Positions 6,744-24,528 of a stretch of DNA of 33,672 nt are shown piece by piece. Below the pieces are notes generated by a model. It did no database searches, had not been told where the DNA came from, and was given only the letters and a program-made list of their open reading frames with translations. The first letter of the stretch is position 1. Each line of letters starts with the position of its first letter. Source of the DNA: Acidobacteria bacterium RIFCSPLOWO2_12_FULL_67_14b (lineage in GTDB: Bacteria > Acidobacteriota > Vicinamibacteria > Vicinamibacterales > UBA2999); assembly GCA_001768615.1 (NCBI GenBank), contig MELE01000185.1, forward strand, positions 405-34,076. The letters run 5' to 3'. The translations under genes and the position numbers were made by a program.

Positions 6744-7556
6744 GTGATCAGGCGACCGTTCCGTCCCGCCCGCTTGCGCGCCGTGCCGCGCGGCCACGAC
6801 CGCCGCGGCATCCGGCGCGGCGTCTCGCTCTTGCCCAGCCTGTTCACGCTGGCCAACCTGTTTTGCGGCTGGGCCTGCGTCGTCCACGCCATGCGCGGCG
6901 AGTTCGCGACCGCCGCGCCGTTCATCGGCGTGGCGGTCGTCCTGGACATGCTCGACGGCCGCATCGCGCGCATGACGGGCACGACGAGCGAGTTCGGCGT
7001 GCAACTGGATTCGCTGGCCGACCTGATCTCGTTCGGCATGGCGCCGGCCGTGCTCGTGTTCCAGTGGGGGCTGCTGCCCCTCGGCCGTCTCGGATGGGCG
7101 ATCGGGTTCCTGTACCTGACGGCCGCGGCGCTTCGCCTCGCGCGTTTCAACATCCAGGCCAATACCGACAAGCGCTACTTCGTCGGCCTGCCAAGCCCCG
7201 CGGCCGCGGGGCTTCCCGCCGCGACGGTGTTCTATTTCCCGGAAGGGTTGGTCAGCTATCCGCAGGCGTTGCTGGGCATGACCATGCTGATCGTGCCGGC
7301 GCTCCTGATGGTCAGCACCATCCGCTTCCAGAGCTTCAAGGCGCTCGACCTTGGCATCAAGCGCGGCTACCGTGGGCTGGTGCTGGTGGCCGGGTTCATC
7401 GCGCTGCTCGCGGCGTACCCGCACGAGACGCTGATCGTGATGGCGTACCTGTATTTCGCCTCGGGTTTCATCGGGCTGTTGATGGCGAAGCTGAGGGGCC
7501 GGCCGGTCGATCACGGACACGAGCCCGACCCGCAGGACCGCCAGGAGGCGAGCTGA
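6744..7556 (+). CDS. pssA: CDP-diacylglycerol--serine O-phosphatidyltransferase
   Basis: GTG 6744; CDP-alcohol phosphatidyltransferase motif DMLDGRIARMTGTTSEFGVQLDSLADLISFG; multiple TM segments. Confidence 0.93.
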   Translation: MIRRPFRPARLRAVPRGHDRRGIRRGVSLLPSLFTLANLFCGWACVVHAMRGEFATAAPFIGVAVVLDMLDGRIARMTGTTSEFGVQLDSLADLISFGMAPAVLVFQWGLLPLGRLGWAIGFLYLTAAALRLARFNIQANTDKRYFVGLPSPAAAGLPAATVFYFPEGLVSYPQALLGMTMLIVPALLMVSTIRFQSFKALDLGIKRGYRGLVLVAGFIALLAAYPHETLIVMAYLYFASGFIGLLMAKLRGRPVDHGHEPDPQDRQEAS

Positions 7557-7607
7557 CAAACAAGGTGCGTACAGTGCGTACGGTGCCTGAGGTGCGTACA
7601 GTGCTCA

Positions 7608-7695
7608 GGTGCCTCGGTGCTTCGGTGCTTCGGTGCTTCAGTGCTTCGGTGCTTCGGTGCTTCGGTGCTTCAGTGCTTCAGTGCTTCGGTGCCAC
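7608..7695. repeat. 8-bp tandem repeat, consensus GGTGCTTC, 11 units
   Basis: Units read directly: GGTGCCTC, 3x GGTGCTTC, AGTGCTTC, 3x GGTGCTTC, 2x AGTGCTTC, GGTGCCAC. Confidence 0.95.
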
Positions 7696-7707
7696 GGGTG
7701 CTTGAGT

Positions 7708-7790
7708 TCAGCCCCGACGAATCGGCGGAATCCAGCGTGACACGCGACGCGTGTACTCGTCGTACGACGCGCCGAAATCGTCCCCGGCTT
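7708..7790 (-). pseudogene. Remnant resembling the 3' end of an isoprenylcysteine/phospholipid methyltransferase-like gene
   Basis: Minus strand encodes KAGDDFGASYDEYTRRVSRWIPPIRRG followed by TGA (7708-7710); resembles the C-terminus of small membrane methyltransferases (fGxxYxxYxxxVxRWIP). No upstream gene body. Confidence 0.45.
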
Positions 7791-7879
7791 TCCGCTCACA
7801 ACTTTCGGCTGAGACGAGCTGAAGGCTGAAGGCTGAAAGCACGGTACGCACCCTAAGGCACTGTACGCACTGTACGCAC

Positions 7880-10800
7880 CTAGCTTGTCGGCAGCGTCAT
7901 CGTCACCCTCGTCCCCTTGCCGCGCTCGGACGTGACGGCGATCGTTCCGTGGTTCGCGTCGACATTGCGCTTCGCGATCGTCAGGCCCAAACCGGTTCCA
8001 ATCGCCTTGGTCGAAAAATACGGCTCGAAGATCTTCGCGAGCGCATCGGCGTCCATGCCGACGCCCGTGTCGGTGACGCGCAGCTGCACCGTGCGGGCGG
8101 TGTTGTGGGTCGCATCCACGGTCAGCGTGCCCCCGCCCGGCATGGCGTGCAGGGCGTTTTCGATCACGTTGGTCAGCGCGCGGCCGATCAGCATGCGGTC
8201 GATCCACAGCCGCGGCAGGGTGAGGGGCACGTCGGTGACCACCGTCACGCGCCCCGCCAGGCCCGTGCGGTACGGTTCGACCACTTCGCTCACCAGCTCC
8301 GACAGGTTCGTCTCCACGGGCTTCGGCTCGGGCGACGAGGCGAAGCTGGAGAACTCCGACGAAATCTGGCGCAGCAGCCGCACCTGCCCGAGGATGTTCG
8401 AGACGCATTCGTCGATCACCCCGCCCATCGGCCGGCCCTGATCGATGTGAACGCGCCGCAAGTGCTCGGCGTTGAGCTGGATCGGCGTCAGCGGGTTCTT
8501 GATGTCGTGCGCCACCTGCCGCGCCATGTCGGCCCACGCGGCGAGCCGGTTGGTGCGCTCCAGTTCCCGGCGCTGCCGCTGAAGGTCGGCGGCCATCTGG
8601 TTGAACGCTTCGACCAGCCGCCGCAGTTCATCCGACGAGGTGGCGAGGACGCGGGCGTCGAGGTCGCCCCTGGCGATCCGCCGGGTGGCCCGCATCAGGC
8701 GGTTCACCGGGTCGGCGATGCGCTCGGCCATGTAGTACCCGATGCCGGCCCCGAGCATGATGAAGAGCAGCGCCGCAAGCAGCACGCGCCGATCGAGCTC
8801 TTCGATTTGTGCTTGCGTCTCCTGTTGCCGCGACGTCAGCGGCACCATGAGGATGGCCTCGCGGCCCTGCACGTGCACCGGCGCCGCGGCGATGAGGTAC
8901 TCGAGGTCCCCGGCGACCTCGCGCCCGAGGTACGACGGGCGGCCGTCGAGCAGGATCGCGCGGAAGGCGTCGCCGGGCGTGCGCGTCGGCAGCAGCCCGG
9001 AGGCGAACAGGTTGCGTTCGCTCGAGGCCAGCAGGTTGGCGCCGGCAAAGATGTTCACGTCCTGCGCGATCACCCGGTTCAGCCACACCATCAGGTTGTC
9101 ATCGACGAGCGGCAGCGCCGCCAGCCCGCGCTCCTGGAGACTGCCGAAATCTTCGACCACGCGGCTGGCGACGCCGGCGATGCGCGTCGCCTCGCTGGCG
9201 ATGTCGGCCAATATCAGCGACGCGATGTACGCGCGCGACACCAACGCCAGGGCCAGCACCGGCACGATCGCCGCCGCCACGAAGGCGAGGAACAGCTTGC
9301 GGTAGAAGCTCGCACGCACTTCGTCCAGCAGCGCGCGTCCCGACGCCGGCGCGCGCGCCACGAGGATGTTGAACAGCATGCCGCCGCCCACGGTGACCAT
9401 AAACACCACGAACGCCAGCGTCACCAGCTCGGCGATCGTCACCAGGTGACCGAAGGCGGTTTGCCGGGCCATCCCCAGCGTGTAGATCGCCGCGCGGTCG
9501 CTCATCACGTAGACATCTAGCCGCCCCGACTCTCCCTCCATCGTCGTCCAGAAGGGCTCGCGTGAGGCGAAGGCGCCGCGGAACACCGGCTCGGTCATCG
9601 GCGGCGCGGTGGGGCCGGAGTTGTAGAGCACGCGGCGGCTCCACCCGTAGACGGAGAGCTCGACCTCGGCGCGAAGGCGGGGCTCGGGGCGCGGCTGACC
9701 GGATCGAATCAGCGCCACGTACGGGTTCTGCGCCGAGATGAACGACAGGTTGGCGTAGTCCAGCCTGGCGCGGACCACGACCGACCCCACGCGGCGACGG
9801 CCGGTGGGCCCATCGATGCAGATGGCGCGGCCGTCATGCAGGAGGCGGCGTTCCTCGGAAAAGAACGGTGACGATTCTTCGAGGAGCTCCCATTCGCACG
9901 ACGATTCGACCCAGGGTTGCGGCGTGCCCTGGTCGGGGAGCTTCATGTTGAAGCGGCTGACCATCGCGCCCGAGGCGTTGTGGAGTTCGACACTGGACGT
10001 CATGCGCTGGGTCGCGAGGCTGGTTTGCGACCACACCAGGAACGCCGCGTCGGTCGGCAGCGGTCCCGACGCCGGCGGGTCGCTGGCCCGCACCAGGTCG
10101 TCGAGGGCGCCAATGCGATCGATCTCCGCGACCGCCTGTTGGAGCTTGAGGCGCACGTCCTGCCGTTGATTCACCACTTCCGGCGCGTAACGCGATTCCA
10201 CCAGCTGCCGCTTCGCGCGCAAGGCGGCATCGACCAGCGACGGATAGAGCGCCACGGACGGCAGCATCATCGCCAGGAACGACGCCAGCAAGCGTGTGGC
10301 TTGTGAACTGTGCCGCAGCGTGGCGCGGTAGTGATGAATGACGAGGGTGGCCACCACCGTGAAGGCCGCCGCGGCCAGCGTCGGTAGCAGGGGCGCATAC
10401 CGCTCGGCCATGCCCGGCCACCACAGGAGCGCCACCGGCGCGATCCACGCGATCACGCCGCGGGCGCGCCAGGCGCGGCCTGACTGCGGGAAGGCCCATA
10501 GCGATCGCGCCAGCAGCAGCAACAGCACCGAGAACCCGACGACCGCCGCATTGAGAGCGACCAGGCCGATCACGACCTGGAGCCGGACGGGGTCCGCCGG
10601 ATCGATGGCAAACCGCAGGATGTCCACGGGCGCCGGCGAGACCTGCGTGCGCAGGAACGATTCGTACCAGATGAGCAGCGCCAGGGCCGTGGCGCCGGCG
10701 GCGAACTGGAAGACGAGGAAGAGGGCGCCGGCCGCCGGACCGTCGACGAGCAGGACGCCGACGCCGCGGCGATGGCCCGATCGCCACAGCGCGAAGCTCG

Positions 10801-23152: not shown

Positions 23153-23154
23153 GG

Positions 23155-23206
23155 ATGACGCAGATTTCCAGACCACGGCCGCAGATCACGCAGATGACGC
23201 AGATCT
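23155..23206. repeat. Solo ACGCAGAT-type iteron cluster just after recJ
   Basis: GATGACGCAGATTTCCAGACCACGGCCGCAGATCACGCAGATGACGCAGATCT; GCAGAT at 9-bp spacing after a GGCCGCAGAT end-like motif. Confidence 0.7.
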
Positions 23207-23251: not shown

Positions 23252-23344
23252 ATGGACGCACAGTCGCTCTTCACGGCGTTCTGGACGAACGAATCGAAGA
23301 CCACCCGCAACGTGCTGGCGAGTAGCCGCAGATTGCTTTCTTGA
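23252..23344 (+). pseudogene. 5'-end remnant of a DinB-family gene
   Basis: CAGGAGACGGT then ATG: MDAQSLFTAFWTNESKTTRNVLA, resembling DinB-family N-termini; breaks into repeat-derived sequence (SSRRLLS*) at about 23322. Confidence 0.5.
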
Positions 23345-24028
23345 AATACGGCCGCAGATTAAACACAGATTAGACACAGATTCTCTTTTTTGAAGACCCA
23401 CACCGATCTATGGCTCGCTCATCACAAACCGGCGGTACTCGAGCGACGGCCGCCCGAAGTTGAGTAGCAGCGCCGTCTGATGGCCGCTGAGAGCCAGGTA
23501 GTTCAGGACCTGCGCATGATCAGAGGGGCCCGTTACCGAACTGGCCTTCACCTCCACAACCACCTCGTCGAAGCACACGAAGTCGCACTTGTAGAAGCCG
23601 CCGAGACGCTTCCCCTTGTATTCGACCGAGCATGGCACTTGGGCAACGAATGGGATGTCACGAAGTGCGAACTCGTGAGCCAGCGCCTCGCTGTAGATCA
23701 CTTCGAGGAATCCTCTGTGGAGAATCCGGTGAACCTCCATCGCGGCGCCGATGATCGCGAATGTTCTCTCGTCTCTACCCGGGTGCGGAATGTTCATGCG
23801 AAGCACCTCATCCAATCCGTATGCCGCGCGCATCGGGCGTTCGCGATCAGCGGAAGTCCCTGTCCAGGCTCGCGCGGGCACACCGACACGCTTGGCGCGT
23901 TGTTTGAGAGTCGCAGTTTCTTCGATGGCACAGGCCATCTGGTCTGGCAATTCCTGCCACGTGAGCATCCGTGAAGACTGGAGGGAGTAATCTGCGTCCA
24001 ATCGGCGTCGAATCTGCGGCTGTATTTC
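23343..24028. mobile_element. Candidate iteron-bounded element, unit 1, carrying an intact GxxExxY gene
   Basis: Left end GAAATACGGCCGCAGATTAAACACAGATTAGACACAGATT (23343-23382) versus the reverse complement of 23989-24028, 33/40 identical as inverted repeats. Confidence 0.5.
23408..23797 (-). CDS. GxxExxY protein (PDDEXK_3-like)
   Basis: MNIPHPGRDERTFAIIGAAMEVHRILHRGFLEVIYSEALAHEFALRDIPFVAQVPCSVEYKGKRLGGFYKCDFVCFDEVVVEVKASS...; GFLEVIY signature and D...ExK (CDFVCFDEVVVEVK). Confidence 0.88.
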   Translation of the reverse strand: MNIPHPGRDERTFAIIGAAMEVHRILHRGFLEVIYSEALAHEFALRDIPFVAQVPCSVEYKGKRLGGFYKCDFVCFDEVVVEVKASSVTGPSDHAQVLNYLALSGHQTALLLNFGRPSLEYRRFVMSEP

Positions 24029-24184
24029 GTCTCAGTCAATCTCAGGCTGGTACCAATCCCCAGAGCCCGCGACTCGCGGAGCATTGATCACGTAGCCACC
24101 GATTGCCCTTCCTGAAATACAGCCGCAGATTAGCGACCCACAGATTAGACACAGATTCTCTTCTTCACGGACACACACCCATCT

Positions 24185-24247
24185 ATGGCTCGCTCAGCAC
24201 AAACCGGCGGTACTCGAGCGACGGCTTCCCGAAGTTTGAGCAGCAGC
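24185..24247 (-). pseudogene. C-terminal remnant of the GxxExxY gene in unit 2
   Basis: Encodes SNFGKPSLEYRRFVLSEP, matching the SLEYRRFVMSEP end of the intact gene; upstream catalytic region deleted. Confidence 0.8.
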
Positions 24248-24431
24248 ACCTCATCCAATCCGTGTGCCACGCGCATCGGGCGTTCGCGATCAGCGTCAGT
24301 CCCTGTCCAGGCTCGCCCGGGCACACCGACACGGTTGGCGCGTTGTTTGAGAAACGCAGTTTCTTCGATGGCACAGGCCATCTGGTCTGGCAATTCCTGC
24401 CACGTGAGCACCCCGTGAGGATTGGAGAAGT

Positions 24432-24492
24432 AATCTGCGTCGAATCTGCGTCGAATCTGCGTCGAATCTGCGTCGAATCTGCGGCTGCATTT
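24432..24492. repeat. 11-bp iteron array AATCTGCGTCG x4 plus terminal AATCTGCGGCTGCATTT
   Basis: Units at 24432, 24443, 24454, 24465, then 24476. Confidence 0.95.
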
Positions 24493-24515
24493 GGTCTGAA
24501 TCAATCTGAGGCTGG

Positions 24516-24521
24516 TACAAT
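24516..24521 (+). promoter_or_regulatory. Candidate -10 (TACAAT) for the lptC/lptA-like gene
   Basis: GGTACAATCGG located 8 bp upstream of GTG 24529; lies within the sequence shared between units 1 and 2. Confidence 0.3.
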
Positions 24522-24528
24522 CGGTGGC

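Follow-up and report, generated by a model that had tools for sequence, protein, structure and literature searches.

The interval between recJ and lptC in Acidobacteria bacterium RIFCSPLOWO2_12_FULL_67_14b contains two similar units bounded by inverted arrays of short repeats (iterons), one of which encloses a gene for a GxxExxY protein. The question raised by this locus is whether gene and arrays belong together, and whether the nuclease-like protein moves the unit that carries it. A reading of the window (the whole stretch of 33,672 nucleotides that was analysed; contig MELE01000185.1) from its sequence alone had proposed a nuclease-mobilised element, with an autonomous copy (unit 1), a deletion derivative (unit 2) and solo ends.

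Structure of the recJ–lptC interval

The features of the interval are listed in Table 1. The inverted ends of unit 1, for which 33 matches in 40 positions had been claimed, were recovered as 40 nt arms with 83% complementarity. Each arm is an array of AATCTGYG units facing outward with a distal AATCTGCGG. The iteron formula given for the ends of both units is correct in general and fails in two details: in unit 1 an iteron has the form AATCGGCG, and for the right end of unit 2 the sequence is GGCTGCATTTGG instead of GTATTTC. Across the genome of the window AATCTGCGGC was counted 43 times and the reversed pattern six times, which exceeds chance.

Table 1. Parts of the recJ–lptC interval (positions in the window).
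Feature	Position	Strand	Basis or remark
recJ	end ~23152		Neighbour of interval; Pfam
Partial or solo ATCTGCG array of a different sub-flavour, adjoining the recJ stop	23154–23206	-	Sequence; direct-repeat family D5
Unit 1 left iteron array; outward order AATCTGTG, AATCTGTG, AATCTGCGG-CCGTATTTC	23343–23382	-	Inverted repeat I1, 83% over 40 nt
GxxExxY / PDDEXK_3 nuclease gene, 129 aa	23408–23797	-	ATG at 23795–23797
TTG-start version of the GxxExxY open reading frame	extends to 24001	-	
Unit 1 right iteron array: AATCTGCG, AATCGGCG, AATCTGCGG-CTGTATTTC	23989–24028	+	Inverted repeat
Native lptC upstream flank, copy carried with unit 1	24029–24058	+	Direct repeat D3; related genomes
Unit 2 left array	24114–24157	-	Repeat analysis
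Unit 2 interior, remnant of unit 1 interior	24158–24431	-	Direct repeats D1 + D2, 90% identity
Unit 2 right array, grown to five iterons, 11-bp period	24432–24492	+	Sequence
lptC	start ~24529		Other neighbour of interval; Pfam

Unit 2 was compared with unit 1 within the window and is 90% identical to it across 98 + 217 nt. It retains both ends and lacks ~340 bp of unit 1 (~23462–23801) corresponding to the nuclease core, in agreement with the loss of the catalytic region described earlier; the deletion junction shows a short AGCA-type microhomology. The homology had also been said to extend past the inverted repeats, and it does run on into the right flank (24029–24058 / 24493–24523). In the related genomes G001, G007 and G008, CTGCGGCTGGTACAATC or a close variant is found immediately before lptC. 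The shared flank is thus native lptC upstream sequence, which points to a tandem duplication of the units. The pair is best read as the product of a local duplication in tandem, after which one unit lost part of its interior, in place of an autonomous copy and a non-autonomous insertion. Two independent insertions were considered and rejected, since both units share the native lptC flank.

The GxxExxY protein

The gene in unit 1 was described as intact, and profile searches agree: it matches TIGR04256 (5e-36, 123.6 bits, curated cut-off 35) and PF13366 (PDDEXK_3; 4e-32, 111.5 bits, cut-off 22). The PD-(D/E)XK-like D...ExK pattern recognized in it consists of D72 and E82-x-K84. In an alignment of 51 sequences D72 and K84 are invariant, E82 is present in at least 90% and the Q96xxxY100 pair is conserved. 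No cysteine occupies an invariant or nearly invariant column of these 51 sequences, unlike the residues of the Cas4 Fe–S cluster. At least 540 GxxExxY relatives were confirmed in one scan. In searches of the open reading frames of the window unit with Pfam and NCBIfam profiles, the nuclease was the only match and no transposase or recombinase was found.

A model was calculated with AlphaFold2 from the 51 sequences (pLDDT 91.7). In structure comparison its best match in the PDB was Cas4 SSO0001 (E = 2.6e-4), with further matches to RecE, LHK-Exo and lambda exonuclease; a viral library gave one more match, to a PD-(D/E)XK nuclease from Halogranum tailed virus 1. The predicted fold is Cas4/RecB-like. 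The similarity to the Cas4 profile is weak, and a sequence search for a solved structure of a GxxExxY relative gave none.

Generality and specificity of the arrays

For the generality sample, 80 named GTDB GxxExxY loci were used, and the 600 bp upstream and downstream flanks were compared with each other (score >= 30). Control positions were taken from the same contigs. Inverted repeats surround the gene at 58 of the 76 testable loci and at 15 of 507 control positions; the association of GxxExxY genes with inverted iterons thus far exceeds that seen in controls. Some of the off-target control matches proved to be further GxxExxY genes when the same contigs were scanned more densely. A motif count gave outward chains on both sides at 47/75 loci and inward chains at 2/75 (control positions, 4/607). 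By record title, the sampled loci come from Acidobacteria, Verrucomicrobia, Planctomycetes, Bacteroidetes, Chloroflexi, Cyanobacteria and Proteobacteria.

The standard arm consists of about three outward 7-mers NTYNGYG, ~9 bp apart, with a G after the last one. Counts in 100 loci that have both arrays gave three iterons in 137 of the 200 arms and a spacing of 8–11 bp, with 9 bp the commonest. A G comes after the terminal iteron in 161/200 arms and after an internal one in 25/369 cases. The arrays are near the gene on either side, at a median distance of 37 bp from the domain. The motif was framed after the first loci had been seen; the Asticcacaulis and phylum sets, which came afterwards, conform to it (arrays at 15/25 and 20/25 loci, respectively), with 20–40% of the loci in these later sets having no detectable arrays on both sides.

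The genome of the window contains four PDDEXK_3 matches. Inverted arrays also surround locus L001 and the truncated L004, in flavours other than that of the window (CTCTGTG, CTTCGTG), and at L002, which lies at a contig end, an array is seen on one side only. Solo arrays and gene-less pairs also occur elsewhere in this genome, bearing out the solo ends and derivatives proposed earlier. The link of iterons to GxxExxY holds from the side of the gene and is looser from the side of the repeat, since a number of other arrays in the genome have no gene between them. Three of 72,556 plasmid records and none of 50,697 phage records contained GxxExxY.

PIN and GIY-YIG genes from the same or related genomes, which are also small and often multi-copy, were used as controls for specificity. 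NTYNGYG arrays flank 52/73 GxxExxY loci and 0/48 PIN and GIY-YIG loci (Fisher p = 2e-17), and they were found at 1/50 loci of the four-helix-bundle family PF05635. The controls led us to reject arrays as a general trait of small multi-copy genes.

Co-variation of iteron and protein

The two ends of a single locus match each other, with a mean Hamming distance of 0.34 of 7 positions (1.95 when permuted). Iteron flavour correlates with protein distance overall (Mantel r = 0.45), within 16 Asticcacaulis loci (r = 0.70) and within 18 loci of the window's family (r = 0.61), with p <= 0.0002 in each case. Because the correlation holds within single taxa, host background cannot easily explain it. Base 1 of the iteron requires six changes on the protein tree, compared with at least 27 when labels are shuffled, and residue 20 is the protein column most strongly tied to it. 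A one-residue recognition code (M20–A, I/L20–C) was considered from the first set, where M accompanies A in 40/41 and I/L accompanies C in 25/26 loci. The code is kept only as a lead: it failed partly in new loci (I/L with C in 17/17, F with C in 4/4, M with C in two of seven), and there are too few independent changes on the tree (only two concordant pairs in a tree-independent test). The co-variation as a whole is compatible with a protein that recognizes its ends, but much the same signal would arise if gene and ends had descended together.

Presence, absence and movement

Varying presence among close relatives had been expected of a mobile unit and was found at two intervals in related species. 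Between recJ and lptC in the window's genus, the unit itself is present in G000 and an other-flavour unit in G004; gene-less mini-arrays are found in G002, G003 and G005, a single-sided array beside other open reading frames in G006, and only remnants in G001, G007 and G008. The G007 interval (L199) also contains an ABC permease C-terminal-like fragment between an expanded left array and the right end remnant; this is possibly host DNA captured between arrays.

The GxxExxY gene is present in 13 of 25 Asticcacaulis genomes. In A. currens (G055) the unit lies between convergent genes that we take, from our own reading of their translations, to be garR and hemB. Two genomes with flanks 90–91% identical to these (G080 and G067) have no unit and have a short intergenic hairpin instead. 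At this one pair of filled and empty sites no target-site duplication was found; the unit replaces the hairpin and the insertion is not clean. Precise excision of a unit was not found in the Asticcacaulis filled/empty comparison. The garR–hemB interval is a variable spot. In three further species it holds a different open reading frame of ~550 bp (L257, L258 and L260 in G068, G076 and G074, respectively).

At the same interval the arrays of G055 and G077 are identical over ~30 nt (100%). Identity of their GxxExxY genes at codon positions 1, 2 and 3 is 0.86, 0.94 and 0.42, indicating purifying selection on the protein, and the 42% at third positions compares with 68% in the left flanking gene. 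Identical arrays together with this difference suggest that the gene diverged fast or was exchanged between constant ends. At two other orthologous sites the GxxExxY genes are only 65–70% identical. Different Asticcacaulis species also carry related units at sites that are not homologous (L288/L298/L310 and L289/L304); their genes are 79–84% identical and their arrays near-identical. In G071 two copies lie 17 kb apart; their genes are 98% identical, but the stretch from gene to right array is dissimilar, which looks like duplication and gene conversion.

Many near-identical copies were seen in one genome only (G178, L341–L356), where they lie inside a repeat that is presumably IS5-like, judging from our reading of its translated transposase. 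The nuclease gene copies within it show differing internal deletions. These copies were rejected as proof of transposition in trans; the unit is a passenger, spread by the insertion sequence. In the loci compared here neither direct movement nor a transposase was found for GxxExxY units. The description as a nuclease-mobilised element was thus too strong.

Comparison with known systems

In RAYT–REP systems the gene lies between two inverted short repeats, the repeats vary with the enzyme and bare repeats occur elsewhere (PMC2817692). The GxxExxY gene likewise has an inverted cognate repeat on each side, whose sequence varies with the enzyme, and the RAYT–REP pair is its closest working analogue. 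The parts differ: by Pfam and NCBIfam the enzyme is a Cas4/RecB-like PD-(D/E)XK nuclease and not an HUH/Y1 transposase, and the ends are direct arrays of about three 7-mers, whereas a REP is a single imperfect palindrome.

With Cas4, RecB and lambda-exonuclease nucleases the GxxExxY protein shares the fold, D...ExK and QxxxY; it differs from Cas4 in having no conserved Fe–S cysteines, in its length of 129 aa and in being bounded by iterons. A Cas4-like nuclease is not known to act as a transposase by itself. Inverted ends and gene-less derivatives are shared with MITEs and classical insertion sequences, but GxxExxY units have no transposase and no target-site duplication at the one site compared. 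The 23S rRNA intervening sequence with an S23/IVP open reading frame (PF05635) is similar in being an element of ~430 nt with inverted ends and a small open reading frame; its protein and iteron class are different, and the window unit lies between recJ and lptC, not in rRNA. The GxxExxY unit departs in at least one tested feature from RAYT–REP, Cas4, insertion sequences and 23S intervening sequences alike. In the open-access literature (most subscription journals and all preprints being outside this scope) GxxExxY is mentioned incidentally only, and no account of the flanking arrays was found.

Discussion

At the level of sequence comparison, the architecture, the specificity for the gene family, the matched ends and the co-variation of iteron and protein are established. 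We are confident that GxxExxY and its arrays form a cognate nuclease–repeat unit, and such a unit is probably mobile on evolutionary time. That it is moved by its own nuclease is a closer question, on which we lean slightly towards no. Points against movement of this kind are the missing target-site duplication and precise excision, the near-absence from plasmid and phage records, the fact that a Cas4-like nuclease is not known to transpose DNA by itself, the spread of the G178 copies by an insertion sequence, and the later-set loci with no detectable arrays. In the mechanism proposed, the nuclease, or a complex containing it, would recognize the iterons and cut at or near the terminal G. Host recombination would mend the breaks with a further copy as template, which would spread units and bare arrays and allow cassettes to be swapped between identical ends. 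The life-style would be selfish, organized like RAYT–REP pairs with unrelated parts. We are inclined to see in the window a compact nuclease-plus-iteron unit that spread in this manner, present as one copy together with a damaged tandem duplicate. A broader and more tentative proposal is that such units form a new class of selfish DNA. A Cas4-like nuclease acting alone, with no transposase, would make cuts at its iteron triplets, and repair of the breaks by the host would spread units and bare arrays; the PF05635 elements might be a parallel class with other iterons.

The iterons might instead serve regulation or self-recognition: the nuclease would bind them to control its own expression or to mark its locus, and the unit would be passed on vertically or by ordinary horizontal transfer, with no self-movement. 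Toxin–antitoxin or defence genes are examples of such self-regulating or self-marking loci. The short distance of the arrays from the gene on both sides would suit this role, as would their stricter conservation relative to the gene, the weak similarity to the Cas4 profile and the missing target-site duplication at the compared site. Gene-less mini-array pairs and solo arrays away from the gene are harder to reconcile with it, the terminal G at the far side of each array and the symmetric, outward-facing arms resemble the ends of an element and not operators, and sister species carry related units at sites that are not homologous; we consider this explanation unlikely, while giving it some weight. 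The arrays could also be passive, that is, unrelated substrates of recombination or replication slippage that tolerate GxxExxY and are spread by insertion sequences or homologous recombination. The IS5-like carrier in G178, the tandem duplication in the window and the growth and shrinkage of arrays (the right end of unit 2, the left end in G007) are what such substrates would give, but the specificity for one gene family, the fixed orientation, the matched ends and the tracking of protein phylogeny would be unexpected, making passive arrays improbable.

A role in RNA was also weighed, in which the inverted arrays are transcribed and form a long RNA hairpin, to be processed in the way of 23S intervening sequences, the protein being a by-product. 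Analogous inverted short arrays of another class accompany the PF05635 (23S IVS) proteins, and the Coxiella 23S intervening sequence has three tandem heptamers upstream of the S23p open reading frame (PMC4990558). The GxxExxY units examined, however, lie in intergenic DNA and not in rRNA, and the codon-position identities given above indicate selection on the protein; we regard this role as very improbable.

The cognate nuclease–repeat unit gives a widespread family without an assigned function an immediate candidate substrate in its DNA sites and accounts for a class of short intergenic repeats. Its several iteron flavours offer a natural series of matched nuclease/site pairs for studies of DNA recognition. 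If the units are self-mobilizing, a Cas4-type nuclease alone can sustain a mobile element.

Other repeat-bounded loci

Stand-alone PF05635 genes (23S IVS four-helix bundle) were found to have inverted short arrays of their own, of another and mostly pyrimidine-rich class, with units such as CTTCCCT, AACACCG and TCAACTG in several phyla (L135–L163, L357–L386). Inverted repeats with a score >= 30 were found at 20/22 of these loci in the window's family and at 21/29 loci of other genomes. Some contigs with GxxExxY loci also carry RAYT-like (Y1 transposase) genes that have REP-type inverted repeats (L029, L062, L075). At L064 (149–1159) a HEPN-like open reading frame lies between inverted CTCTGTG-type arrays with no GxxExxY. 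In the window itself, positions 7552–7892 between convergent genes hold a gene-less block with inverted 41-nt arms (88% complementary) and an interior of about ten head-to-tail 8-bp TTCGGTGC/TTCAGTGC units, which looks like another iteron-type mini-element.
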